This document shows positions 47,958-62,327 of a DNA stretch of 64,000 nucleotides, in pieces. The DNA comes from Sporocytophaga sp. (GTDB lineage: Bacteria; Bacteroidota; Bacteroidia; Cytophagales; Cytophagaceae), in contig NZ_JAGHZZ010000007.1 in NCBI RefSeq assembly GCF_017745095.1, forward strand, positions 62,001 to 126,000, written 5' to 3'. The position numbers and the translations under genes are program-made. How positions within the stretch are numbered: the stretch's first letter is position 1; each line of letters begins with the position of its first letter. The notes under the pieces were generated by a model. It saw only the letters and a program-made list of their open reading frames with translations, was not told the origin of the DNA and searched no databases.

Positions 47958-48434
47958 TTATTCTGCATAACTCGAACGGAATTTTACTCCCCATTTGCCA
48001 TTCTCTTTTGTTACAATATAAAGCGATTCATAAACACCTATCAAACTCCCATCAGCGCGATAACGTGAGAAGCGAGTATCTACATGAACTTTATCTGCTG
48101 ATGCCTGCACTATATTTCTATGATCCCATTTGCTATGATGCCAGCCTGATTTTTCAAGTCTGATAAATACTGTAGAATCCAATGTAGCACTTTCCAGAAC
48201 AGACATTTTACCACTCGCTAAGCGGTAATGAGGAAAATGATATGTCAACTGCCATGCCTTTGCATCTTTGGAATTAAAGGCATTCATGTATTGATCAAGA
48301 ACCTTAAGAACATCTTTTTTAACCTGAGTATTGATATCATGCGTGCCCCTTTCATTATCATTAGAAACAAATGAAGCACTTACAAATAGTGCCGTTATAA
48401 ATAAGAATGCGCAGAACATTGTATAATATTTCAT
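47958..48434 (-). CDS. Exported NTF2-like (SnoaL/DUF4440-type) protein
   Basis: 158 residues with a signal peptide (about 1-23, ending SASF). The remainder has the cone-shaped NTF2/SnoaL pattern: DQYMNAFNSKDAKAWQ near the start, then VIRLEKSGWHHSKWDH-like helices, a DKVHVDTRFSRYRADGS beta segment and a YIVTKENGKWGVKFRSSY end. Such folds bind or isomerise small hydrophobic molecules, including steroids, or act only as binding domains. It is the last gene of the sulfatase locus, 64 nt after the second sulfatase. Confidence 0.75.
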   Translation of the reverse strand: MKYYTMFCAFLFITALFVSASFVSNDNERGTHDINTQVKKDVLKVLDQYMNAFNSKDAKAWQLTYHFPHYRLASGKMSVLESATLDSTVFIRLEKSGWHHSKWDHRNIVQASADKVHVDTRFSRYRADGSLIGVYESLYIVTKENGKWGVKFRSSYAE

Positions 48435-48498
48435 ATTTACATTGCTTTTATTTTATATTAAAAATGGTGGAGGCATTTCATCCTCCACCTTTGAATTG

Positions 48499-50364
48499 TT
48501 ACTCTTTTGCTTCTGAAATATTGGGCTTTATTACTGCTTTAAAAGAACCTCTGTTCAGACAATCAGTCCAGTCGATAAGCGGATAAACATTATACTTTCT
48601 GGCTTCCGCATCAAACAAGGCTTTCAGCTCTTGTAACTTCTCAGGATATTTGGACGCAAGATTTATACGTTCATTAAAATCTTCATTCAAATTATATAAC
48701 TCCCAAACATCCTTTTCAAAATTCCTTTCCACTTTGTTTTCTCCAGGATATGAAACAAGATCGTAGAATGCAGGTGTATGAGCAGCTTCAGCCTTCCAGC
48801 CATCCTTATATATAGATCTTGATCCGAAAATATTATAATATTGAACTGTATGCTTTGAAACAGCGCTTGCATCATTCAAGGAATATGCCAGACTTGTTCC
48901 TTCAATTGGCTTTTGTTGTATTCCTTTAATGACAGGCTGAGGTTTAATTCCAGTCAATTCAACTGTAGTAGGAAAAAGGTCAATCAAATGTCCATATTGA
49001 GTCCTTATTGATCCTTTATCTTTAATACCTTTTGGATAAAAGACAATCAAAGGGTTCCTGGTCCCTCCTTCTGAGTTAGCATCTTGTTTCCAATGTTTAA
49101 AAGGAGTGTTAGCAGCCTGTGCCCAACCAATAGGGTAATTTGTATAGGCCTCAGCTGAGCCGATTTTATCATAGTTCTTTAATAGATCTCTTAAGATTTC
49201 ATCTTCAGGGACAGTATTCTTGGGTGAAAATTCACTTTGAATAACTCCATTTTTTGCACCTTCCTGACTGGCTCCATTATCTCCTATAACAATAAATATA
49301 GCCGTATTTTCAAGCTGTCCAGAATTCTTAAGGTGACTTACAATTCTTCCAATTTCATGATCTGTGTACTCAAGAAATCCTGCATATACCTCCATGAAGC
49401 GAGCATAGATTTTTTGTTCTTCAGGTTTAAGATCTTTCCATGCTTTCACCCTTGAATTGCGTGCAGGCAATTGAGCTGTTGCTGGTACTACTCCAAGCTT
49501 CTTTTGATTTGCAAGTACCTGTTCACGGAACTTATCCCATCCCTGATCAAATTTACCTCTGTATTTATCACTCCATTCCCTCGCCACCTGATGAGGAGAG
49601 TGAGTAGCACCAGGAGAGAAATATAGGAAGAATGGCTTATCAGGAGCTATTTTCTTTTGATTGGATATATAGTTGATTGCTTTGTCGGCAATCAATTCAT
49701 TAAGATGTCTTCCATCGGATTTAACATGTTTATTATCCTCAACAAGATCAGGCTTGTACTGATCAGTAGCACCACTAAGAAAGCCATAAAAGTGGTCAAA
49801 TCCCTTACCTGAAGGCCACCTTTCGAATGGACCAAGATCAGTAGATTCATCATCTGGGGTTAAATGCCATTTACCAAGAGCATAAGTATTATAACCATTT
49901 TCTCTGAATGTTTCTGCTACTGTGCCTGCCTCTGAAGGAATATGGCCATCATATCCAGGAAAATCAGCTGAAAGAAAATCATGTGGGAATCCTCCCATAT
50001 GAACAGAATGATGATTCCTACCTGTAAGTAAGGCTGCTCTTGTAGGCGAACATATTCCTGTTGTATGAAAATTGGTATATCTTAAACCATTGTTAGCAAG
50101 ACTATCAAAAGTTGGAGTATTGATCAATCCGCCGAAAGTAGATGTGGCACCGAATCCAACATCATCAAGCAATATCCATATCACGTTAGGAGCACCGGCT
50201 GGGGCTTTCTTCAGATACGTAACCTTATCGGGTTTTGATTCTGAAAGTGTTTTACCAATCGTTCCTTCGAATTTCTTGTTCTGCGAAAATGCAGGCAAAG
50301 CAAGCCCTGCACCCAATACAAGTACTGATGCAAGCTTTGTTGTTTCTCTTAAAATCTCTTTCAT
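48499..50364 (-). CDS. Arylsulfatase (formylglycine type, AtsA-like)
   Basis: 621 residues with a signal peptide (about 1-28, ending AFSQ). The catalytic Cys105 that becomes formylglycine is in GICSPTRAALLTGRNHH; the GRNHH ending is typical of Pseudomonas AtsA-like sulfatases. Metal ligands are in LLDDVGFGA and IGDNGASQEG. A long C-terminal domain follows. It hydrolyses sulfate esters in the periplasm. Its partner, the sulfatase-maturing enzyme, is not in this window. It lies 17 nt after the desaturase-family gene. Confidence 0.93.
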   Translation of the reverse strand: MKEILRETTKLASVLVLGAGLALPAFSQNKKFEGTIGKTLSESKPDKVTYLKKAPAGAPNVIWILLDDVGFGATSTFGGLINTPTFDSLANNGLRYTNFHTTGICSPTRAALLTGRNHHSVHMGGFPHDFLSADFPGYDGHIPSEAGTVAETFRENGYNTYALGKWHLTPDDESTDLGPFERWPSGKGFDHFYGFLSGATDQYKPDLVEDNKHVKSDGRHLNELIADKAINYISNQKKIAPDKPFFLYFSPGATHSPHQVAREWSDKYRGKFDQGWDKFREQVLANQKKLGVVPATAQLPARNSRVKAWKDLKPEEQKIYARFMEVYAGFLEYTDHEIGRIVSHLKNSGQLENTAIFIVIGDNGASQEGAKNGVIQSEFSPKNTVPEDEILRDLLKNYDKIGSAEAYTNYPIGWAQAANTPFKHWKQDANSEGGTRNPLIVFYPKGIKDKGSIRTQYGHLIDLFPTTVELTGIKPQPVIKGIQQKPIEGTSLAYSLNDASAVSKHTVQYYNIFGSRSIYKDGWKAEAAHTPAFYDLVSYPGENKVERNFEKDVWELYNLNEDFNERINLASKYPEKLQELKALFDAEARKYNVYPLIDWTDCLNRGSFKAVIKPNISEAKE

Positions 50365-50381
50365 TATTTCCTTATTTAATG

Positions 50382-51287
50382 TTAGGCATTTTTTAATTCC
50401 TTTATAACCTCTAAATCATCCCCTTCCTCTTTTACTTCTGGTCCATCTTTAGCCAGCTCACTACTTATGATTGGGGATTTGAATATTGGCCAAAGCCATT
50501 GTGCATACCATGGATCATCTTCATAGTTGGATATGCCGTACTGCTTTGGAAATTTTCTGCTAATGTGAGCGGTTCCAAATATTAAATCCCAGATAAACAG
50601 AATACCTCCGAAATTCCCCTTATAATATCCAATGCCATCACCGTGAGAAGCCGCGTGATGCGCATGATGTGTAGCTGGCGTTACTAAGAGTCTTTCCAAA
50701 AACCAGGCAACAGGATGTAAAATCTTATATCGATACAAAACCTTATCCCATTTTACACTTGTATGGCAAGCATAGGACCAGACTGTCTGAAACCCGTTAA
50801 ACAAAAGAGCAGGACCACCAAGACCCAGATAGACCAAAGCCGCAGTAATATAGAACTGAGATAGAAAGGCTACATAAAAAATATTTTGTCTGGAATTCAC
50901 CACAACACTCATATATCTCGCTGAATGATGTGTCCTATGGAATCGCCACAATACAGGTATCTGATGATGCAGACGATGATACCAGTATTGAGAAAGATCA
51001 ATGGTGACCAGAATAATAAAAAATCCAAAAATAAATGGTATCCAGACAAAAGCATCTTTAAGACCAGGAAGAATAAATGGTAATATTTTCAATGAAAAGA
51101 AGCCTATAAGGGCCGAAAAAATAAATCTTGGAGCGATAAGACATACGATATCAAGTATCTTATCATTCTTCGACCATTTGCCTTCGAGCAAACCAAAGAA
51201 TAATTCAACAGAACCGAGAATAAGGATAAATACCATAATCCCCCATCCGTTGAGATTTTGTATTGCAGATTCAAAAAACTTGATCAT
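50382..51287 (-). CDS. Sterol desaturase / fatty acid hydroxylase family membrane protein
   Basis: 301 residues with about four membrane segments. The histidine clusters that bind the di-iron centre are HRLHHQ and HRTHHSARYM (near 115-145) and HHAHHAASH (near 220). The family hydroxylates or desaturates sterols, sphingolipids or carotenoids at the membrane. It is placed directly between two sulfatases: 7 nt after a 39-codon frame and 17 nt before the second sulfatase. That makes a lipid-like substrate for the locus plausible. The substrate itself is unknown. Confidence 0.9.
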   Translation of the reverse strand: MIKFFESAIQNLNGWGIMVFILILGSVELFFGLLEGKWSKNDKILDIVCLIAPRFIFSALIGFFSLKILPFILPGLKDAFVWIPFIFGFFIILVTIDLSQYWYHRLHHQIPVLWRFHRTHHSARYMSVVVNSRQNIFYVAFLSQFYITAALVYLGLGGPALLFNGFQTVWSYACHTSVKWDKVLYRYKILHPVAWFLERLLVTPATHHAHHAASHGDGIGYYKGNFGGILFIWDLIFGTAHISRKFPKQYGISNYEDDPWYAQWLWPIFKSPIISSELAKDGPEVKEEGDDLEVIKELKNA

Positions 51288-51294
51288 ATGTATA

Positions 51295-51414
51295 TTAGTT
51301 AATGGCCCATATAAGTAATAGAATTGCTACTGTGACTAATGTCACAGGAAGAATAAAAACCAGTATAGAAGCTAGTATTTTCTTGCCAATGAGTATGAGA
51401 TCCTTTAAAATCAT
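51295..51414 (-). CDS. 39-residue membrane peptide in the sulfatase operon
   Basis: A 39-codon frame read as MILKDLILIGKKILASILVF and then ILPVTLVTVAILLLIWAIN. It starts 17 nt after the first sulfatase stop and ends 7 nt before the desaturase-family start, so spacing fits translational coupling. A short charged head (Lys, Asp) leads into one long hydrophobic helix, a typical one-pass inner-membrane microprotein. Upstream, on the minus strand, an AAAGGAT sequence lies about 7-10 nt before the ATG. No family is recognised. I infer it may assist or regulate the hydroxylase, but only by position. Confidence 0.55.
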   Translation of the reverse strand: MILKDLILIGKKILASILVFILPVTLVTVAILLLIWAIN

Positions 51415-51431
51415 ATATATATCCTTTATAA

Positions 51432-53000
51432 TCAAATAGGGAAATAATTGAACTCACCATTGTTATTATATTTCATATACATTACACTTGGCCAACGAGG
51501 AGCCTGAACACTATTTTCCCATTTTAACAGTTCTTGTTTTAACTCATCTACTTTTCCTTTATTCGTAGAAGCGAGGTTATGACTCTCCGAAACATCATTC
51601 TTTAAATCAAAAAGCAATGTTTGATTTTCTTTTTCATTGATATATAATTTATAATCACCTTTTCTTACAGCCTTTGCAAATCCGACTCTCCAGAAAAGGC
51701 TTTCATGCGGTCTCTCTTTCTTTTCACCATTCAGGTATGGAATAAGGTTTACCCCATCATAACTTACATCTCCTGGAAGAGATGCTCCTGTTGCTGCTGC
51801 TATGGTCGTAAAAAAGTCAAGAGATGAGACCGGCTGATCAAAATCTTTCCCTCCCTTTATGACAGCAGGGTACTTGATAAAGAATGGAACTCTGATACCT
51901 CCTTCGAAATTAGTAGCTTTACCGGCTCTTAAAGGTTTATTATCCAGAACATGCGTGTAAGTTGCGCCCCCATTATCACTTAGAAATATTACTATTGTAT
52001 TATTATCAAGGTTCAATTCTTTTAACTTGCGGGTAATAACTCCAACGGCATCATCAAGAGATTTCACCTGAGCCTGATAGGCCCTTTGAGTGCTGTCCTT
52101 AATTGAAGTAAGTAAATCGAAATCTGATTTCTTTGCCTGCACAGGATCGTGAGGAGCGTTGAATGCCAGATACAGAAAGAATGGATTATCCTTATTCCTT
52201 TCAATAAAGTCAGCAGCTTCATTACCAAATCTTGTTGTCAGGTATTCCTTAACTTCTGTTTCTTTTCCATTTTGTTGCACAGCTCCCCAACCACTTCTCT
52301 TTTCTTTGAATACACTTTTATCCCAAAAAAGATGAGATAAATGACGTGATATCAATTGAGGATCGCTAACCGCTCCATAAGTGGTGCCACCTCCAAGTAT
52401 TCCATATGAATAATCAAAACCTTGCTTTGAAGGAATTAAATCTCCGCCTTCTCCTAAGTGCCATTTTCCTACCCATCCTGTTTTATAGCCTTGTTCCCTC
52501 AACAATTCCGCGATAGTTATTTCCTGTAAAGGAAGCCCTTGTTTAATCTCTGAAAACTTCTTTACATCAAGGTCTTTATCGAAGACGACATCAAACTTAT
52601 TTAACCAGGCACTCACCTGGGAGATTTTGGTTTTATCTGCATTTTCAATTCCCCACGTGGCAGCCGATCCTACTATAAACTCAGAACCGAATCGTTGCTG
52701 GTATCTTCCTGTGAGAAGACCAGCTCTGGAAGGACTACAATATGCTGCACTTACATATCCTTGGTTGAACTTCACTCCTTCTTTCCCCAAAGCATCAATA
52801 TTGGGTGTATTAATAAGTGTATTTCCATAAGAAGATAAATCATGATAGCCAAGATCATCAGCCAAAATGATTACAACATTGGGCTTCTTTCTTGCATTCT
52901 GAGGACCTTCAAATTTAGCTTCAGTAATAAAGGACCATAAAACTGCACCGGAGGCAATTGCCAGGAATGCGATACTTGCTTTTATAATTTTATTTTTCAT
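51432..53000 (-). CDS. Sulfatase (formylglycine type)
   Basis: 522 residues with a hydrophobic signal (about 1-24). The catalytic Cys88 is in AAYCSPSRAGLLTGRYQQRFG, the standard C-x-P-S-R sulfatase motif. Metal ligands are in ILADDLGYHD and LSDNGGATYT. It is shorter than the AtsA-like enzyme at 48.5 kb and closer to exported sulfatases acting on sugar or small-molecule sulfates. It follows the SusD gene by about 120 nt and is followed by the 39-residue frame. Both sulfatases need a maturation enzyme encoded elsewhere. Confidence 0.93.
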   Translation of the reverse strand: MKNKIIKASIAFLAIASGAVLWSFITEAKFEGPQNARKKPNVVIILADDLGYHDLSSYGNTLINTPNIDALGKEGVKFNQGYVSAAYCSPSRAGLLTGRYQQRFGSEFIVGSAATWGIENADKTKISQVSAWLNKFDVVFDKDLDVKKFSEIKQGLPLQEITIAELLREQGYKTGWVGKWHLGEGGDLIPSKQGFDYSYGILGGGTTYGAVSDPQLISRHLSHLFWDKSVFKEKRSGWGAVQQNGKETEVKEYLTTRFGNEAADFIERNKDNPFFLYLAFNAPHDPVQAKKSDFDLLTSIKDSTQRAYQAQVKSLDDAVGVITRKLKELNLDNNTIVIFLSDNGGATYTHVLDNKPLRAGKATNFEGGIRVPFFIKYPAVIKGGKDFDQPVSSLDFFTTIAAATGASLPGDVSYDGVNLIPYLNGEKKERPHESLFWRVGFAKAVRKGDYKLYINEKENQTLLFDLKNDVSESHNLASTNKGKVDELKQELLKWENSVQAPRWPSVMYMKYNNNGEFNYFPI

Positions 53001-53033
53001 AACCTTTCAGTCTTGGGCTTTAGACAATATGCG

Positions 53034-53076
53034 TCACTCCTGCCTGTCTGTATAAAGAGACAGGCACTCGGAATGA
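53034..53076. repeat. Imperfect palindrome between susD and the sulfatase gene
   Basis: TGCCTGTCT (53041-53049) pairs exactly with AGACAGGCA (53058-53066) over an 8-nt loop, flanked by TCACTCC / GGAATGA. The outer part resembles the GTCATTCC-type repeats scattered in Bacteroidetes genomes. There is no T run, so it is not a standard terminator; it could set the SusCD-to-sulfatase mRNA ratio. Confidence 0.55.
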
Positions 53077-53120
53077 GCATAGCAAAACATACTTGAAAAT
53101 TTATACCTCTACAACAATTA

Positions 53121-54614
53121 TTATTTATCCCACCATAAGCGAGGCACCTGATGATTAGAAGTTTTTGTTGGGATATTAGAATTTAATACTTCTTCATTCT
53201 GAGGATATGGTAGCCTTCTTGGAATCCCGCCACCTGGATTGGATGCATGATCTCCATCAGAAAGCAAATTCAATTGAGGATAACCTGTTCTTCTATAATC
53301 CACCCAAGGCTCAGGCTGAGAAAATAATGAAATATATTTTTGAGTAATGATCGTTTTAAGGTCTTTATCATAGTCTCCTGTCAGGACTGCCTTAGTATTG
53401 ATATAAGCGGTTCTTTTAACCTCAGTTGCATTCGTATCTGCAGGATCTGAAACAATTTTATTAAATGAAGCACGCACAGCATCCTGCAAAGCAAGCTGCG
53501 CCCCTCCATCAGCAAGTATAAGTCTTGCTTCTGCCTCTATAAGTTTATTTTCAACAAATGATGTAAAAATAACCTGAGAAGTTCTTGAGGCTACAAAAGA
53601 TCCAGGAGTTGAAAAAGCGATAACACCTTGTGTAGGCAAACCTACATATTTTCCACCTGCAGGATTTATTAAATAGGCTCTTCTTGGATCAATCAGCGAT
53701 ACCGTTTTATTTCCGGGATCTGTTGCTTCATTTCCATTCAGAAGGTTTACGATTGCCTTTCCTGCAACTATCCAGTTTGGTCTGTATGAGCCATATTGAA
53801 ATATTGGATTTGAAGTTGTAGGAGCTGTAGTATAACTTACTGCCAAATCCCCTGCATTTGAACTGATTCCTTTTGATGCATATGATAATGCTTTAGTTGC
53901 AGCATCTGTTTTATCAACTTTGGATAAATGAAGTGCGTATCTAGCTTTTAAAGTCCATGCCGCTGCTATCCATTTGCTCACATCTCCTTTAAAAATAACA
54001 TCATCGGAAGACGGGACAATTCCACCCAGGTTTGCTGTCTTGGGCTTACTAAGTTCCTGAATAGCGGAGTCAAGCTGAATCTGAATATTGGTATAAATAT
54101 CCTGTTGCCTGTCATATTTTGGTAATGGGGAAGTATTAATCTGTAAGGCATCTGAATAAGGTATATCGCCGAACACATCGGTAGCAGTGCCTATTCCTAC
54201 CACAAATAATATCCTTGAAATACCGGAATAATAAGGTAATCCTGAAGCTTTAGACTTATTAATAATAATCTTCAGGTTATATAAAGTACCAGGATATAAA
54301 GCAGACCAATAATCATTGAAATAAGAATTGGCTACTGTATAGTTTTGTACTGTTGAAGCAAAGTCTATATTTCCAGCAAAATGTTGATTATAAATACTCA
54401 CATATGGTCCCAGCTGAGAGCCTTGTGCAAAGGATAACGACAACTGAGCTCCTGGCAACAATGTATTAACAGACGCATCAGAAGGCACATTAGGATTGAT
54501 ATTTGTTTCTTTAAGGTTGCATGAAAAAACCAGTAAAGATGCAGCTATTCCTATGGCGACAGACTTGACAGGCTTAATAATCCTTAAAATATTTTTAGTG
54601 TTTATTGTTTCCAT
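53121..54614 (-). CDS. SusD/RagB-family outer-membrane lipoprotein
   Basis: 497 residues. The lipoprotein signal ends in LLVFSC (Cys near residue 32). It opens with ETNINPNVPSDASVNTLLPGAQ, the pattern of the SusD-like group that lacks the usual starch-binding architecture. It has TPR-like helices near residues 60-130, GIGTATDVFGDIPYSDAL, and the ending RRLPYPQNEEVLNSN with a final aromatic LWWDK. It is the surface partner that caps the SusC channel, capturing substrate. It lies 83 nt after susC and is followed by the sulfatase. Confidence 0.92.
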   Translation of the reverse strand: METINTKNILRIIKPVKSVAIGIAASLLVFSCNLKETNINPNVPSDASVNTLLPGAQLSLSFAQGSQLGPYVSIYNQHFAGNIDFASTVQNYTVANSYFNDYWSALYPGTLYNLKIIINKSKASGLPYYSGISRILFVVGIGTATDVFGDIPYSDALQINTSPLPKYDRQQDIYTNIQIQLDSAIQELSKPKTANLGGIVPSSDDVIFKGDVSKWIAAAWTLKARYALHLSKVDKTDAATKALSYASKGISSNAGDLAVSYTTAPTTSNPIFQYGSYRPNWIVAGKAIVNLLNGNEATDPGNKTVSLIDPRRAYLINPAGGKYVGLPTQGVIAFSTPGSFVASRTSQVIFTSFVENKLIEAEARLILADGGAQLALQDAVRASFNKIVSDPADTNATEVKRTAYINTKAVLTGDYDKDLKTIITQKYISLFSQPEPWVDYRRTGYPQLNLLSDGDHASNPGGGIPRRLPYPQNEEVLNSNIPTKTSNHQVPRLWWDK

Positions 54615-54697
54615 TAACTTATTCTTTTTTGATTGTCTCTACTATCGGACTTCCCGGTATTACTCTTTACTGATCACCAGTAATCTGAACTAAATGA

Positions 54698-57600
54698 TTA
54701 GAATACAATATTGACTGCGGCTCCATAGCTATGTGTATTTGGAGGCGTCCAGAAATCCACACCTGGGTTTGAACCAACCTGACCTGCTCTAACCATCATA
54801 TCAGGATCAGAACCGGAATAATTTGTTTTTAACAAGAAGTTTCTAGCAGATAGTGACAAAGTAGCCGCGCTTACTCCAAATCTTTTCAATGCTGTTGCAG
54901 GTAATCTGTAGCTAAGGCTGACATCCCTCAGTTTTATAAAATAAAGATCTTTCTCAACGAATAGGCTATTTGTCTGCAGCGTCGTAGAATATAAGGCTTG
55001 AGTTTTTACTACCTCTATGTCATTAGCTGATCCATTACTTGCCTTTACACCTTCGAATACCATCTTTTCTCCTCTTGATTCTGTTGAAGCATCGGTTCCG
55101 TTAAGCACCATTTGTGATCTTGCAAAGTTTAAAATATCAAAACCTACACGAGTATCAAGAAGGAATGAAAGAGAGAAAGCTTTATAGGATAGGCTGTTTC
55201 TTAAGCTTGCATTAAATTTTGGATTAGGATTACCAATAGGACTTTGAGAACCACTTACGAATGGTTTTCCATAATTAGTGCTTTCAGGATTATCATCAAT
55301 GATTATCTTGCCATCTGAATTTCTGATAAAGTCGGTCCCATAAATAATTCCGAAAGGCTGGCCAGCTACTGATGAGTTATTCAGACCGTTTGATATCTGT
55401 TCTACACCAGGTGCAAGCTTAACAACCTTGCTCACATTTTTATAGTAAATGAAATTTACATCCCATGCAAAATCCTTAGTCTCTACTGGAGTTCCATCAA
55501 GAGACAATTCAATCCCTTTGTTTGTTACTACTCCGATATTTCTCACGACTGCAGTTGCTCCGCTCGAGTATGGCACTGTAGCCGGAATGATCTGGTCTTT
55601 GCTTTTGTTAGAATAATAAGTTGCATCAATACCTGCTCTGCCTTTGAAAAATCTCAATTCACCTCCAATTTCAAAAGATTGAATTTTCTCAGGTCTAAGA
55701 TTCTGATTACCCTGAATTAAGGCACTTGACAAGGTTGTAGTTCCGTTAAAAGGTCCCTGATAAGTGGATTGCAAGAAGTTATTAGATAGGGTTGTATTGT
55801 TATAATAAGTTTGAAGTGAATATGGATCTGTGTCATTACCTACTACCGCATAAGTAGTTCTTAACTTTCCAAAGGTGAAATAATCATTCTTGAGCTTAAG
55901 TGCATCTGAAAAAACAAAAGATGAACCTATTGAAGGATAGAAAAATGAGTTTTTACCAGCTGGCAGAGCAGAAGACCACTCATTTCTTCCTGTAAAATTT
56001 AGGAACAGCCAACGTTTATATCCTACAACAGCATTACCATAAAGAGCAACAAGCTTCTTTCTCAGTGTCACTTCATTTGAAGATATAATGGAAGCATTAG
56101 ACAACATGTATTGGTCAGGTACAATCAACCCATCGCCTCTTGAAGTCAACTGATACCTCTCTGAATTGTAATAGTTCTGACCGAGGTTTAGAGTAAGCTT
56201 TAGGTCTTCATTCAGATTTCTGTCCGCAGAAAGAAGTAAATCATGATTGTAGTTTTTTTGAGCAAAATTGATAACGTTTACCAATCCTTGCCCCACTCCT
56301 GCGCTTCCATTAGCAAAACCAGAGTTTCTATAATCTCTATAATAATCGATACCAGGTCTGAAAGTAGCTTTTAACCAAGGTAAAAAATTATAATCTAGCT
56401 GGGTATAGGCTATAAATCTGTTAACTTCGTCTTTTTGAGGGTTTCTTTTAAGTGTCCAGTAGGGATTATCCCAGCCATTGCCCTGTGCAAAAGATCTGGA
56501 TGCCCCCCACGGTTTGGTTGCAGTTGGTGCAAGCTGATACGCATCCTGATGTTCCCATGGTTTGTCATATCCATTAGTTATATCAAAGGTAACTGGAGTA
56601 TTTGCAAGAGCTCGCAGATAAGATGTAGGATATCCCCCGCCGAGAGCTCTGTTATTAGATCCATCATTAGCATAAGTAAGTCCCAATGCTACTTTGAATT
56701 TTTCAGTAAAATCATAGTCCCCATTGAATTTGGCTGAAGTTCTTTCAAAATCAGTAGTAGGGATAATACCAGTTTGATAAAGTCTTCCAAGGGAAGCATA
56801 GTAAGAACCATTGTCTGATCTGCCCGCTATGTTAATATTGTAATCTTGAGTAATTCCTTTAACAAAAAAATTCTTCTCATTATCATATCTGTTCACAGCT
56901 ACTCCGTTTGAATATGGAGAGCTTTTCCCTACAATAATTCCATTCTTATCATAGTCATAGGTTTGACCCGGTGCAGAAGCTACAGCGTAGGTAAGAGTAT
57001 CCAACAATGCTCCCCAGCTGTTTTGATTGGCCAGACTATACTGTCCTGCAGATCCTTGAGAATATTTTGTTTGGCGAGGTTGAATACGTCTATTTATTTC
57101 ATCTATGGTTATGGAGGAACTTACACTCACCTGAAGTTTTTTATCCGTAAGATTTCTACCTTTTTTTGTATTAATAATAATTGCTCCGTTTGCAGCCCTG
57201 ATACCATAGAGTGCAGCAGCTGCAGGGCCCTTCAGGACGGTGATATTTTCAATATCATTAGGATTTACATCAATTGCCCTGTTTGAAGGCTGAGATAGAG
57301 AATAGCTATTCGTTATATTTCCAGCAAGATCTCCAACGCTATTATCAATGGGAACACCGTCGAGTATATACAAGGGGTTGTTATTGCCAAGAAGGGAGGC
57401 ACTTCCCCTTATACGAATCTGTGATGCTCCACCGGGAGATCCGCCGCTATTAGTTACCTGCACACCTGCAATCTTCCCACTCAAAGCTGTGGTAACATTA
57501 GGTTCACCGGACTTTAAAATCTTATCACCTTTAATCTCGGTAATAGTATTGGTTATTGACTTACGTTCACTCTCAATTCCTACCGCTGTCACAACTACTT

Positions 57601-57937
57601 CAGACAACTGCTGTCTTGATTTTAAAGTAAAATTCAATTCAGCTTCTTCTTCATAAACTTCAACTTCTTTGGGTGCGTATCCTGCATATTGAACCAACAC
57701 AGTAAAGGGAAGCGGAACATTAGTCTTTAATTCATACTCTCCATTTTCATTTGTTGCTGTTCCCTCTTTTGTTCCTTTTATCTGAATGATAACTCCAATT
57801 AATGCCTCTTTAGTAGTTTCATCATTAATCCGTCCCTTCAGGACAGACTGAGCGAGAACAACAGAATGTATAGTTAACAGAGTAATCGTAGCTACCAATA
57901 CTCTTATAGTTTTTTGATCTGTATATAATCTTCTCAT
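54698..57937 (-). CDS. SusC/RagA-family TonB-linked outer-membrane transporter
   Basis: 1079 residues with a signal peptide (about 1-29). A carboxypeptidase-regulatory-like domain (about 30-110) is followed by the SusC hallmark SEVVVTAVGIESERKSI, the plug domain (TALSGKIAGVQV, then YILDGVPID) and a 22-strand-type barrel that ends in a C-terminal Phe (VNIVF). It uses TonB energy to pull large ligands held by SusD through the outer membrane. Its locus lacks glycoside hydrolases and carries sulfatases, which sets it apart from ordinary polysaccharide loci. Confidence 0.95.
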   Translation of the reverse strand: MRRLYTDQKTIRVLVATITLLTIHSVVLAQSVLKGRINDETTKEALIGVIIQIKGTKEGTATNENGEYELKTNVPLPFTVLVQYAGYAPKEVEVYEEEAELNFTLKSRQQLSEVVVTAVGIESERKSITNTITEIKGDKILKSGEPNVTTALSGKIAGVQVTNSGGSPGGASQIRIRGSASLLGNNNPLYILDGVPIDNSVGDLAGNITNSYSLSQPSNRAIDVNPNDIENITVLKGPAAAALYGIRAANGAIIINTKKGRNLTDKKLQVSVSSSITIDEINRRIQPRQTKYSQGSAGQYSLANQNSWGALLDTLTYAVASAPGQTYDYDKNGIIVGKSSPYSNGVAVNRYDNEKNFFVKGITQDYNINIAGRSDNGSYYASLGRLYQTGIIPTTDFERTSAKFNGDYDFTEKFKVALGLTYANDGSNNRALGGGYPTSYLRALANTPVTFDITNGYDKPWEHQDAYQLAPTATKPWGASRSFAQGNGWDNPYWTLKRNPQKDEVNRFIAYTQLDYNFLPWLKATFRPGIDYYRDYRNSGFANGSAGVGQGLVNVINFAQKNYNHDLLLSADRNLNEDLKLTLNLGQNYYNSERYQLTSRGDGLIVPDQYMLSNASIISSNEVTLRKKLVALYGNAVVGYKRWLFLNFTGRNEWSSALPAGKNSFFYPSIGSSFVFSDALKLKNDYFTFGKLRTTYAVVGNDTDPYSLQTYYNNTTLSNNFLQSTYQGPFNGTTTLSSALIQGNQNLRPEKIQSFEIGGELRFFKGRAGIDATYYSNKSKDQIIPATVPYSSGATAVVRNIGVVTNKGIELSLDGTPVETKDFAWDVNFIYYKNVSKVVKLAPGVEQISNGLNNSSVAGQPFGIIYGTDFIRNSDGKIIIDDNPESTNYGKPFVSGSQSPIGNPNPKFNASLRNSLSYKAFSLSFLLDTRVGFDILNFARSQMVLNGTDASTESRGEKMVFEGVKASNGSANDIEVVKTQALYSTTLQTNSLFVEKDLYFIKLRDVSLSYRLPATALKRFGVSAATLSLSARNFLLKTNYSGSDPDMMVRAGQVGSNPGVDFWTPPNTHSYGAAVNIVF

Positions 57938-58958: not shown

Positions 58959-61900
58959 TTACTGTTTTACAACAGACTTAATAAGGTTTCCAGACTCTGA
59001 CTGGATATGTACAAAATACATTCCTTTGTTCAGATTAGACATTCCCACATTCAACGTATTCTCATTAGCAGCTTCGAATACAACTCTTCCAAGCATATCA
59101 ACAAGCTTCACTGATTTGTTACCGTCAACTTTAGTCATATCGATTACCAGGTTGTCAGTTGCAGGGTTTGGATAGATCTCAACCATACCGTTCAATGCTT
59201 TGCTAATAGAAGTGATAGCAACTACTTTAACATTAACATCAGAAGTTACAGCAGTACAAGGAGTATTTCCGGCAACTGTATATCTGAATGTATAATCTCC
59301 TTTTATAGTAAGACCACTTGCAGTTACAGAAGCAGAGTTTGCAGAAGGGCTATAAGAAACATTTACTCCTGATGGACCATTCAGAAGACTCCATGTTCCG
59401 GTAGCGGAACCTGTAGCTGAAAGATCAACTGTAGGTCCTTCAACAGCGGTCAGAGCTGATCCAGCATTTGCAGTTGATGGAGCAACGATAGTAACATTTA
59501 CAAGAGTACGTGCACTTTCGCAACCCGGGTTAGTAGTAGAAACCTGGCTTACATAGTATGGTTTCACACCTACTGTTGCAGTTGAAGGAACTGGAGCCAC
59601 GTCAGATGCTGTTCCACCTGTAGCATCTGTATACCACTGTAATTTATTTCCTGAAGCAGCAGCGCTAGCTGTAAGTGCAACAGCCTGAGCTCCCTGGCAA
59701 TAAGAAACATTCTGAGCAGTTACAGCACCAGGAGTTGTACAAGTATTTTCAACTGTTACTACTACGTCAGATACAGCAGCAGCACAACCACCTGTACCAG
59801 CTACAGTATATCTGAAAGTATATTCACCAACAGAAGTCAATGTTGAGGTTGTTACAGTTGCACTAGCAGCAGAAGGGCTGAAAGTTACAGTAGCACCAGT
59901 TGGGCCAGTTACAAGACTCCAAGTACCAACAGCAGAACCATCTCCTGTTAAAGTTGTAGCTGTTCCTAAGGCAACGGTTTTATTCGCACCTGCGTTAGAT
60001 TCAGCAGCTGGATTTACTGTAACAGTAATGGCTTTACGAGGACCTTCACACACGTCAGTGCTTGGAGAAGCCTGGCTTACATAAAATTTGTAAACACCTG
60101 CAGAAGCAGTAGAAGGAATTGGAGCGTCGTCAGATGCAGTTCCACCTGTTTCAGAGGTATACCATTTCAATTTCAGGCCTGCATTTCCAGTAGCAGATAA
60201 AGCAGTTGGAGCAGCATTTTGGCAATAAGTCTTATCAGAAGCTGTTGGAGCTATAGGAGTAGTACAGATGTCTTTTCCAAGAGTTGGATCCCCTAGTTTC
60301 AAACCAGAGAAAATTATAGTCTGATCCGTGAAAGCTTTAGGAGCATACGTAGGAGCACCAACATCGGCACTATTCACCGGAATAATAACAACCTCTACAA
60401 CTTTGGTAAAGTCAAAATCAGTATTATTCAAGTTTATATCTTTTGGAAATGATGGAGAATTTGGATTATTGATAGTGTAAGCATTTTTAAAATCAAAAGT
60501 AAATAATTTTGAATCTTTAGGTGCTAATGCTACATAATCCGGAGTTATATGATTTTTACTGAAACCGATTTCATACTTGTACCAGTTTTCAGGTTTTGTT
60601 GCAGCTTCATTCGAAAAGTTTTTATTGATAGCTAATACAGTACCGTCAGCATCTTTCATTTGGAACTTCAGATCAAATGAATTTGTATTAGTCGCAGGAG
60701 ATGTAACTGTAACTGATAAAACAGCATTTTTAGATAAGTCCAAAGTATATTTTTTCTTTACCCCACCTTCACAGTACTCTCCGAAGTTGAAACCTATTAC
60801 GTTATATGCATTTGCTTCCTGAGAAAGAAGGTAGCTTAAGGTACCATCTCCTGCTCTTGTAGCTTCAGCTTTGAATGGAGTTGTCGTACTTCTGTCTTCA
60901 AACCAGTATATACCTGCAGCTGCTGCAGGAGAAGAGACAGAAACAGAACCGCAATTAGTCGCATTTATACCTCCTGTCATTTCTGAAAATTGAGTTTTCG
61001 CCTCAAACTGGTCTGTAATACCGGTAGTAGCTACGTTAGAACTTCCAACAATACTGATTACATAAACTGGAGAAACTCCAATCTCATTTCCTGAAGCATC
61101 AAAAGATTTTGCAGTGATGTTATGACCACCAGCTGATAGTTTGTCAGTGGTATAGGTATATGGACTAGTAGTAGAAGTACCTAGCACAGTTGTTCCATCA
61201 TAGAATACAACTTTGGCAATTGAAAAACCGGTACTTACTGTAGTAGTAGCACTAATTGTTATCGATTCACCCTGATCATACTGAGTCTTTCCTCCGGAAA
61301 ATGAAAGTGTAACTGAACCTGTTGCTACATTTACATTACATTTTCCTTTAAGATATGCCTTTACAAGTTTTCCAGACTCAGTCAATTGATTATCTGTCCA
61401 GCTAGTTGCACTTTGAGTTCCAGGAGTTAAAGCTGCTGATGTTTCTGATTTATTTCCGATAGACCAATTACATGAGCTAAGTTTATTTGTTTCCAGGAAA
61501 TTCCACCATACTTGTGATTCAGCAGCATCAAAATTACCGTTTCCTGATGCGTGACAGGTTCCATACTCGGTTACAAACAAAGCCACTCCTTTACTTAAAG
61601 CCTGAGTAGCTTTTTGCCTCAACCAATCTCTATGTGTATATGCATAATAGTGAAGAGTATAAGCAATGTTGGTTCCGGTTACCTGATCATTTGCGGCGAT
61701 ATCAACATCCTGAGAATAGTTTCCTGTTCCGCAGATAATGATGTTGTCATCAATAGCTCTGATCGCACTGATCACTGCATTATGATATGGTTTGATTGTT
61801 CCAGACCAGGATTGAGCAATTGGCTCATTGTATGGCTCATATAAGACGTTGGGAACATCCTTATATTTGGTTGCAACTTCTTTAAAAAAAGTTATTGCCT

Positions 61901-62327
61901 GACTTTGATAATTTTCAGCTTTATGAGTATGAAAATCTACAACAACATAAAGACCATATTTAATACAAGCATCAATTACAGCATATACCTTTGCCTTTTC
62001 TCCGTTTGGATTACTGATATAGTTATCATTTCCAGTTTCAACGGACATTGCAGCTCTAACTACATCAACACACCAATTATCTCTTAAGTTTTTAATTGTA
62101 GTTTCGTTATAGAACCCTGAACCTTCCGGATAACCGCTCCAGAATAGTGACATACCACGAAGTACTACCGGGTTACCATTACTATCGGAAACCTTTCCGT
62201 TAAAGATTTTAAGTTGTTTATACTTATCTACCGGAGACCCCGCCGGGGCTTGGGCATTTGCAACAAGGATGCTGCAAAAAAACATAGCAAAGGCTATGAG
62301 CTTTGTTTTGTACATGTTTATATTCAT
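58959..62327 (-). CDS. Modular GH5 endoglucanase exported by the type IX system
   Basis: 1122 residues with a signal peptide (ending NAQ, about residue 26). The GH5 catalytic domain (about 36-330) has the acid/base Glu168 in YEPYNEPIA and nucleophile Glu254 in LFVTEYGTC. An Ig-like domain (about 338-427) and a carbohydrate-binding-like domain (about 435-680) follow. Residues about 685-1040 hold two copies of a two-part module: a Cys-containing Ig-like part (TYCQNAAPTALSATG / SYCQGAQAVALTASA) and a PKD-like part (AVGTWSLVTGPTG / ATGTWSLLNGPSG). The last 85 residues are a T9SS sorting domain (IYPNPATDNLVI onward). It cuts beta-1,4-glucan outside the cell. Confidence 0.95.
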   Translation of the reverse strand: MNINMYKTKLIAFAMFFCSILVANAQAPAGSPVDKYKQLKIFNGKVSDSNGNPVVLRGMSLFWSGYPEGSGFYNETTIKNLRDNWCVDVVRAAMSVETGNDNYISNPNGEKAKVYAVIDACIKYGLYVVVDFHTHKAENYQSQAITFFKEVATKYKDVPNVLYEPYNEPIAQSWSGTIKPYHNAVISAIRAIDDNIIICGTGNYSQDVDIAANDQVTGTNIAYTLHYYAYTHRDWLRQKATQALSKGVALFVTEYGTCHASGNGNFDAAESQVWWNFLETNKLSSCNWSIGNKSETSAALTPGTQSATSWTDNQLTESGKLVKAYLKGKCNVNVATGSVTLSFSGGKTQYDQGESITISATTTVSTGFSIAKVVFYDGTTVLGTSTTSPYTYTTDKLSAGGHNITAKSFDASGNEIGVSPVYVISIVGSSNVATTGITDQFEAKTQFSEMTGGINATNCGSVSVSSPAAAAGIYWFEDRSTTTPFKAEATRAGDGTLSYLLSQEANAYNVIGFNFGEYCEGGVKKKYTLDLSKNAVLSVTVTSPATNTNSFDLKFQMKDADGTVLAINKNFSNEAATKPENWYKYEIGFSKNHITPDYVALAPKDSKLFTFDFKNAYTINNPNSPSFPKDINLNNTDFDFTKVVEVVIIPVNSADVGAPTYAPKAFTDQTIIFSGLKLGDPTLGKDICTTPIAPTASDKTYCQNAAPTALSATGNAGLKLKWYTSETGGTASDDAPIPSTASAGVYKFYVSQASPSTDVCEGPRKAITVTVNPAAESNAGANKTVALGTATTLTGDGSAVGTWSLVTGPTGATVTFSPSAASATVTTSTLTSVGEYTFRYTVAGTGGCAAAVSDVVVTVENTCTTPGAVTAQNVSYCQGAQAVALTASAAASGNKLQWYTDATGGTASDVAPVPSTATVGVKPYYVSQVSTTNPGCESARTLVNVTIVAPSTANAGSALTAVEGPTVDLSATGSATGTWSLLNGPSGVNVSYSPSANSASVTASGLTIKGDYTFRYTVAGNTPCTAVTSDVNVKVVAITSISKALNGMVEIYPNPATDNLVIDMTKVDGNKSVKLVDMLGRVVFEAANENTLNVGMSNLNKGMYFVHIQSESGNLIKSVVKQ

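Follow-up and report, generated by a model that had tools for sequence, protein, structure and literature searches.

The usual cargo of SusCD systems is glycan or peptide. In the PULs of Bacteroidota, the genes for SusC and SusD are followed, on one strand and at short gaps, by exported degradative enzymes that include S1 sulfatases. Sulfate esters are scavenged in Pseudomonas by the AtsA, AtsK and SdsA systems, in which uptake is dedicated and of the ABC type and AtsK is an Fe/alpha-ketoglutarate enzyme. The FA_hydroxylase superfamily (PF04116), with Scs7p, the sterol desaturases and OlsE, is marked by histidine clusters, and membrane di-iron enzymes in general act on hydrophobic chains. Small helical subunits of membrane enzymes are exemplified by ssSPT and by CydX, a subunit of cytochrome bd. 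Rv3406 is described as a type II alkyl sulfatase in the available part of its source (PMC3675115).

The window analysed here is a stretch of 64,000 nt from a Sporocytophaga genome. Seven frames follow one another on its minus strand (47958-57937). From upstream to downstream, they encode a SusC/RagA TonB-dependent outer-membrane receptor with plug and TonB barrel (1079 aa, 54698-57937; TIGR04056, 575 bits), a SusD-like lipoprotein of the SusD-like_2 type (497 aa, 53121-54614; PF12771, E 1e-61), a 522-aa sulfatase (51432-53000; PF00884, E 9e-60), a single-helix microprotein of a family termed B (39 aa from its ATG, 51295-51414), a membrane enzyme of the FA_hydroxylase or 'sterol desaturase' type with histidine clusters, termed DES (301 aa, 50382-51287; PF04116, E 6e-22), an AtsA-like sulfatase (621 aa, 48499-50364; PF00884, E 5e-65) and an NTF2-fold protein (158 aa, 47958-48434). 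As in other SusCD-type loci, the TIGR04056 and PF12771 genes are neighbours, here spaced by 83 nt; the gaps within the last five genes measure 17, 7, 17 and 64 nt. Both sulfatases combine PF00884 with the FGly motif C-x-P-S/T-R of the S1 family (CSPSR in the 522-aa and CSPTR in the 621-aa enzyme). The frames, their strand and their spacing, as given in an earlier note on this DNA, agree with the ORF listing and the sequence, and its naming of SusC, SusD, the two sulfatases and the FA_hydroxylase is matched by Pfam and NCBIfam models. In the gap that separates the NTF2 gene from that of the AtsA-like sulfatase, the pattern scan alone indicates an 8-bp hairpin (48466-48489, minus strand) that is perhaps a processing site or a partial terminator.

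The arrangement resembles a PUL, but a Pfam scan detected no glycoside hydrolase or polysaccharide lyase within 47958-57937, so that the GH or PL expected in a PUL operon is absent, as the earlier note had said. The next same-strand gene upstream of SusC encodes a GH5 cellulase (58959-62327) at a distance of 1021 nt. It is set apart from SusC by a terminator-like hairpin with a T-run 3' of the GH5 gene (58934-58913, minus strand, pattern scan). An Rfam scan of the window at the gathering score found no known RNA element.

To describe the surroundings of DES, 80 named loci were compared, which are the best 80 of 367 and not a random sample; each neighbourhood covers up to 10 kb on either side of DES, with 12 of the 80 spanning less than 20 kb. 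Sulfatase genes are found in 70 of these loci, SusC in 66 and SusD in 59. A formylglycine-generating enzyme (FGE) is present in 26, a rhodanese in 19 and a YeiH transporter in 10, where the identity of FGE, rhodanese-thioredoxin and YeiH was established on one representative each. In contrast, 40 other FA_hydroxylase loci, picked by hand from 52 non-DES places (none from genomes G013 or G018; two stretches below 20 kb and one with two FA_hydroxylase genes), contain no sulfatase, FGE or YeiH gene; SusC is present in two of them and a rhodanese in one. Within nine genomes, a sulfatase lies near DES in 8 of 12 loci, compared with 0 of the 40 controls, drawn from seven of the same genomes (Fisher p 7e-7, which is too small because close relatives are counted separately).

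The full seven-gene order is retained in two congeneric genomes (L035, L036) and its core recurs widely, which argues for more than a chance grouping. The combination of DES, sulfatase and SusCD described in the earlier note is conserved. Glycoside hydrolases are rare among the scanned neighbours of the related loci, in line with that note, with a GH89/NAGLU gene in three of the 80 (L067, L080, L111). GH89 is the sole GH family among the 25 most frequent of 110 families in a Pfam scan of 83 of the 147 same-strand neighbours, a scope from which single GHs may escape. The same 25 families include none for fatty-acid or steroid degradation and no recurring lipid-synthesis family. Ten of the 80 loci have no nearby sulfatase, and a second, sulfatase-free DES of the window's own genome lies beside HlyD/RND genes; DES therefore need not act in desulfation.

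DES scores 78.9 bits against PF04116 (cutoff 31) and belongs to the FA_hydroxylase superfamily. Ten histidines are invariant in an alignment of 76 DES sequences, which omits L090, L095, L099, L107 and L126. The structure model of a DES relative aligns weakly with Scs7p (4zr0, Z 5.1); Foldseek gave nothing significant for the DES model, and a DES profile matched no PDB entry up to E 1. With 42 bits, DES stays far below the cutoff (475) of the ornithine lipid hydroxylase model for OlsE (NCBIfam NF052566). The name 'sterol desaturase' comes solely from the annotation of distant relatives.

The closest solved structures to the 522-aa sulfatase are kappa/iota-carrageenan sulfatases (6prm, E 1e-100), and entries named S1-19 are among those that rank next in this PDB search; the enzyme is a candidate member of the carrageenan sulfatase subfamily S1_19. 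The 621-aa enzyme is closest to the arylsulfatase 4cxk/1hdh (4cxk, E 1e-72), which we take to be that of P. aeruginosa and to belong to subfamily S1_4. According to the available part of PMC10154612, the subfamily of the P. aeruginosa-type arylsulfatase also holds the 3-O-galactose sulfatase BT4683. The AtsA-like sulfatase is the recurring type: 57 of the 80 loci encode a relative that is 45% or more identical to it. The earlier note had named polysaccharide-type sulfatases as evidence against its own proposal, a substrate of the lipid, sterol or aryl type that carries a sulfate ester; in part this now applies, through the nearest structures of the 522-aa enzyme.

The NTF2-like protein matches DUF6841 below the cutoff only. 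It was aligned in a set of 9 sequences, and its predicted model (pTM 0.70) is closest in Foldseek to CaMKII hub domains (best E 4e-7), and the same list holds SnoaL/ketosteroid-isomerase-like and NTF2-like entries. The predicted structure thus backs the NTF2-like fold assigned in the earlier note. A signal sequence was judged present by eye. The gene is found in only 8 of the 80 DES loci, and the NTF2 fold is generic. Neither this fold nor the label 'sterol desaturase' supports a sulfated ester of the lipid, sterol or aryl kind as substrate.

The microprotein, listed in the earlier note as one item among others, is the most informative part of the locus. A B gene closely precedes DES in 77 of the 80 named loci (the ORF scan gave 76, to which L106 adds one with an overlong frame) and in 87 of the 90 distinct loci of the wider set that includes the window (91 entries, of which L036 and L055 are one place). 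Family B proteins have about 40 aa and one helix, with K12 and P23 invariant in 59 rows; the window copy shares these features, and Pfam and NCBIfam hold no model for the family. Against an HMM of 57 relatives, with Sporocytophaga left out, the window microprotein scores 26.1 bits, a value reached by none of 10000 shuffles (maximum 14.2). At the 40 control loci, 6980 small ORFs gave no B match at E up to 0.1. In an unbiased draw of 198 genomes of the phylum, seven B matches were found (E 1.6e-7 or better), each at most 262 nt upstream of one of seven DES matches (E 6e-151 or better). B is kept in all ten named loci without a sulfatase and at the sulfatase-free DES of the window's genome, where no third B was detected at E 0.01 despite 27 sulfatase-family matches. 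B therefore follows DES and not the sulfatases. Synonymous codon differences, summed over pairs, exceed nonsynonymous ones in three groups (36:14, 35:12 and 49:13), with 159:127 in Flavobacterium; B is under purifying selection, with a synonymous excess in three of four groups.

A further helix, A, is fused to DES in 48 of the 80 loci and encoded by a separate gene in 28. The fused state changed five times on the tree, which omits L107 (gene broken), at least two of these changes being placed by well-supported branches. Among the control small ORFs, the A model has one weak match (16.2 bits, L151). The sole Acidobacteriota locus sampled (L115) carries B (64 bits), fused A, a sulfatase and FGE; it stems from a MAG, where contamination is possible. 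Neither B nor A was found near plasmid-borne DES relatives in Pseudomonas and Methylocystis (37-39% identity), around which no sulfatase is annotated up to 10 kb away. In Sporocytophaga, A is missing from the window-type DES. The window microprotein was also considered as a detached N-terminal helix of DES, i.e. family A (11.0 bits with an HMM of the fused extensions, 0 of 3000 shuffles), and this was rejected: relatives with fused A also carry a separate B, which identifies the window copy as B. A and B might share a distant origin (one hhalign comparison gave a probability of 48% and E 1.8e-4).

In its gene content, the locus is comparable to the Pseudomonas systems by an arylsulfatase of the same family, dedicated uptake and an enzyme expected to use oxygen; two relatives also encode an alkyl sulfatase. 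It differs by the use of SusCD in place of ABC uptake, and DES is an integral membrane protein of the FA_hydroxylase family, unlike AtsK. PF04116, the histidine clusters and the weak Scs7p match are common to DES and the FA_hydroxylase superfamily, from which DES is distinguished by B, which was not found at the control loci, and by the lack of B and A near the two plasmid-borne proteobacterial relatives. B is similar to CydX and ssSPT as a single-helix protein of about 40 residues that is encoded beside an enzyme and conserved with it. The alternation of a second helix between separate gene and fusion has no counterpart there, and the likeness is one of size, helix and gene position.

The locus is best explained, with about an even chance in our judgement, as one for sulfate-ester acquisition, formed by SusCD, sulfatases and a membrane di-iron oxygenase, DES, with small helical subunits. 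The cell locations, topologies and reactions that we infer are as follows. SusC and SusD would carry a sulfated compound across the outer membrane. In the periplasm, the exported sulfatases would then free its sulfate, after maturation by an FGE whose gene lies elsewhere in the same genome. DES would sit in the inner membrane and use di-iron chemistry and O2 to oxidise either a lipid or the hydrophobic portion of the substrate or product. B would bind DES as a dedicated single-helix subunit, like CydX in cytochrome bd, and in most relatives a comparable role would fall to helix A, whether encoded on its own or as part of DES. The near-constant co-encoding of DES and B across relatives suggests that B is a novel type of small subunit. 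The purpose is most likely sulfur supply in the main, rather than carbon. The low frequency of FGE (26 of 80 DES loci), the lack of an Rfam element at gathering score in the window and the faint structural signal for DES (Foldseek and 4zr0) count against this explanation, as do the ten loci whose DES has no sulfatase nearby, the three of 80 DES loci with neither B nor A, and a weaker DES-like match (E 1e-78) without B in the 198-genome draw.

Since one sulfatase is nearest to polysaccharide enzymes, a sulfated glycan could serve as carbon source. The locus might then be an unusual PUL in which a sulfated oligosaccharide, cut beforehand by other enzymes, enters through SusCD and loses its sulfate to the two sulfatases, with DES acting on envelope lipids as a sideline. 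This reading is possible but doubtful: the carrageenan-type sulfatase, the galactose-3-O-sulfatase in the arylsulfatase subfamily, the GH89 genes and the many sulfatase frames in some related loci (8 model matches in L085) fit it, but the window run lacks any glycoside hydrolase or lyase, GH89 is the only GH among the 25 most frequent families of the scanned neighbours, and what recurs almost throughout is a membrane oxygenase with B instead of CAZymes. With similar doubt, amphiphilic alkyl, aryl or steroid sulfates may be acquired, the sulfatases releasing a hydrophobic alcohol whose breakdown DES-B would begin by hydroxylating it at the membrane. Two Flavobacterium loci (L120, L121) have an SdsA-type alkyl sulfatase gene immediately 3' of DES, which fits an amphiphilic ester, as do HlyD and AcrB-type efflux genes close to DES (L038, L043, L040) and the hydrophobic substrates of membrane di-iron enzymes. 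That alkyl sulfatase is limited to two of the 80 loci, however, the 25 most frequent families of the scanned neighbours include none for degradation of fatty acids or steroids, and SusCD cargo is usually glycan or peptide. The lipid, sterol or aryl substrate of the earlier note is possible but unproven.

That DES-B is a lipid-modifying enzyme (e.g. an ornithine-lipid, sphingolipid or sulfonolipid hydroxylase), placed near sulfatases by shared sulfur-supply regulation, is rather unlikely. The faint OlsE match and the DES loci without sulfatases agree with it, as does the production of sulfonolipids by Bacteroidota described in the available part of PMC9304779. The OlsE score is far under its cutoff, however, DES recurs within SusCD-sulfatase runs, and no lipid-synthesis family recurs among the scanned neighbours. 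It is improbable that DES, A and B form a new multi-subunit oxygenase that works at the inner membrane and removes sulfur by oxidation from hydrophobic esters of sulfate or sulfonate. Such an enzyme would be a membrane counterpart of the AtsK-like sulfatases of type II, and the microprotein would be an obligate subunit of it, while the hydrolytic sulfatases and the YeiH transporter would take the remaining substrate pool. Very improbable is a microORF that acts as translated leader or coupling element with no role at the protein level. Its shortness and its end 7 nt before DES would suit such a function, but the invariant residues and the synonymous excess argue for a protein, one copy in L077 is located away from DES, and wherever A is separate, its gene lies between B and DES, which are then 131-382 nt apart.

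If B is a subunit of DES, an entire group of di-iron-type membrane enzymes annotated as 'sterol desaturase' would be complexes of several parts, the small ones lacking a family model, and expression of the enzyme alone may fail. Helix A, which has its own gene in some species but is joined to DES in others, offers a natural test of the subunit idea. Sulfated organic matter holds much of soil sulfur, and the host of the locus is a soil bacterium; the locus points to a way, little studied so far, in which Bacteroidota of soil and freshwater may draw on such matter. No description of such a locus, or of a sterol desaturase-microprotein pair, was found in the available parts of the literature searched, which excludes most subscription papers. 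The terms 'sterol desaturase' and 'arylsulfatase' each occur once in the available part of PMC5114307.

The coordinates and gaps that the earlier note gave for seven minus-strand frames at window positions 47958-57937 are borne out by the ORF listing and the sequence. Profile matches confirm SusC, SusD, two S1 sulfatases and an FA_hydroxylase-family protein of 301 aa, here termed DES, and the last gene of the run is predicted by structure modelling to have an NTF2-type fold. The gene immediately upstream of SusC (58959-62327, minus strand) encodes a secreted GH5 cellulase that carries Ig-like repeats plus a T9SS sorting tail; two genomes of the same genus have a GH5 match at this position, one with 95% and one with 47% identity. 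Because a gap of 1021 nt and a terminator-like hairpin lie between it and SusC, the cellulase gene looks like a unit apart from the locus. The source genome contains 27 sulfatase-family and six FGE-family matches, one of the latter within a large sulfatase cluster (contig C63, 173-200 kb).

A DES profile search of named genomes yielded 367 relatives, of which the best 80 were retained. HMMs built from the neighbors were applied to the stretch around each DES (up to 21 kb), and neighbor families were identified with Pfam and NCBIfam using one representative each. Among these best 80 of 367, a sulfatase is encoded in 70 loci, SusC in 66, SusD in 59, FGE in 26, a rhodanese in 19 and a YeiH-family transporter in 10; 57 loci encode a sulfatase that shares 45% identity or more with the AtsA-like one of the window. 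In 40 other FA_hydroxylase loci, taken as controls from seven of nine DES-bearing genomes, sulfatase, SusC and rhodanese are found in 0, 2 and 1 cases, compared with 8/12, 6/12 and 2/12 DES loci. The grouping of DES with its neighbors is firm. Beyond the genus, close synteny is seen in genome G022 (identity of SusC 51%, SusD 50%, sulfatase 51%), and SusC identity reaches 52% in Chitinophaga-type loci.

Most short DES genes are preceded by small open frames, located in gaps of ~140 to 480 nt behind the last large gene, from which two single-helix families, A and B, were recovered. Members of family A have a frame of their own in 28/80 loci and are fused to the N-terminus of DES in 48/80. Family B (~40 aa) is encoded upstream of DES, and also upstream of A wherever A is separate. 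The ORF scan detects B in 76/80 loci, and a longer frame in L106 raises this to 77/80; the three loci lacking B (L075, L079, L088) form one group in the tree and also lack A. Synonymous codon differences predominate in three of four B groups and are nearly even in Flavobacterium. No Pfam or NCBIfam model scored above cutoff for three B peptides and one A peptide, and no published account of this locus, or of B, turned up in the part of the literature covered. Judged by its sequence, the 39-aa frame of the window is a member of family B, since it scores 26.1 bits against an HMM of 57 members that leaves out Sporocytophaga. By comparison, 10,000 shuffles reach 14.2 bits at most, 380 scored helical segments taken from other proteins 7.6 bits, and 5,946 scored small frames at control loci 9.1 bits.

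The pairing of B with DES is firm. An even draw of 198 genomes across the phylum gave seven B matches at E ≤1.6e-7, each of them within 262 nt upstream of one of the seven strongest DES matches; one weaker DES-like match (E 1e-78) has no B. Seven further B matches at E 0.001-0.01 are located elsewhere and look like chance. B tracks DES rather than sulfatases, as it is present in all ten named DES loci without a sulfatase and at the second DES of the source genome, which has HlyD and AcrB-type neighbors and lacks a sulfatase beside it.

L077 encodes a second B-family microprotein ~3 kb downstream of DES, after an FGE gene, with no DES beyond it up to the end of the contig stretch. In a MAG (L107:9683-10861), an in-frame stop breaks the DES gene, and a fused A and a separate B are both present. 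B, a fused A-DES, a sulfatase and FGE occur together outside Bacteroidota in a Candidatus Sulfotelmatobacter MAG (L115, Acidobacteriota).

Ten histidines are invariant across 76 DES sequences. For a DES relative with fused A, the predicted structure reaches pTM 0.81 and its N-terminal helix is modelled with confidence; the best structural alignment of this model, a weak one, is to the Scs7p hydroxylase domain. What we infer concerns the subunit role of B, the chemistry, the substrate and the regulation of the locus: DES would be an O2-using di-iron enzyme in the inner membrane whose small subunits are B and A; its substrate may be the desulfated product, the intact ester or a lipid.

SusCD, sulfatases, FGE, rhodanese-thioredoxin and YeiH as neighbors make sulfate-ester acquisition the likeliest setting of the locus. 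The earlier note had proposed a sulfated lipid, sterol or aryl ester as substrate instead of a polysaccharide; such a hydrophobic ester stands as one of several live options, on the following evidence. An SdsA-type alkyl sulfatase encoded directly after DES in two Flavobacterium genomes (L120:10881-12878 and L121:10881-12878) and DUF1254/DUF1214 genes in 4 members of the scanned neighbor set argue for it, whereas the carrageenan sulfatases nearest to the 522-aa sulfatase, a mucin galactose sulfatase within the AtsA-like subfamily and GH89 in three DES loci are against it or neutral. In both Flavobacterium loci, split DUF1254 and DUF1214 genes precede the SdsA-type gene.

Further genes recur near DES as unexplained partners, namely a PstS-like binding protein (L037, L038, L043, L058, L100 and others; identified, weakly, in L100 only) and HlyD and AcrB-type genes (L038, L043, L040). 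A 428-aa protein that has no Pfam match is encoded near the end of a sulfatase run (L085:17770-19053).
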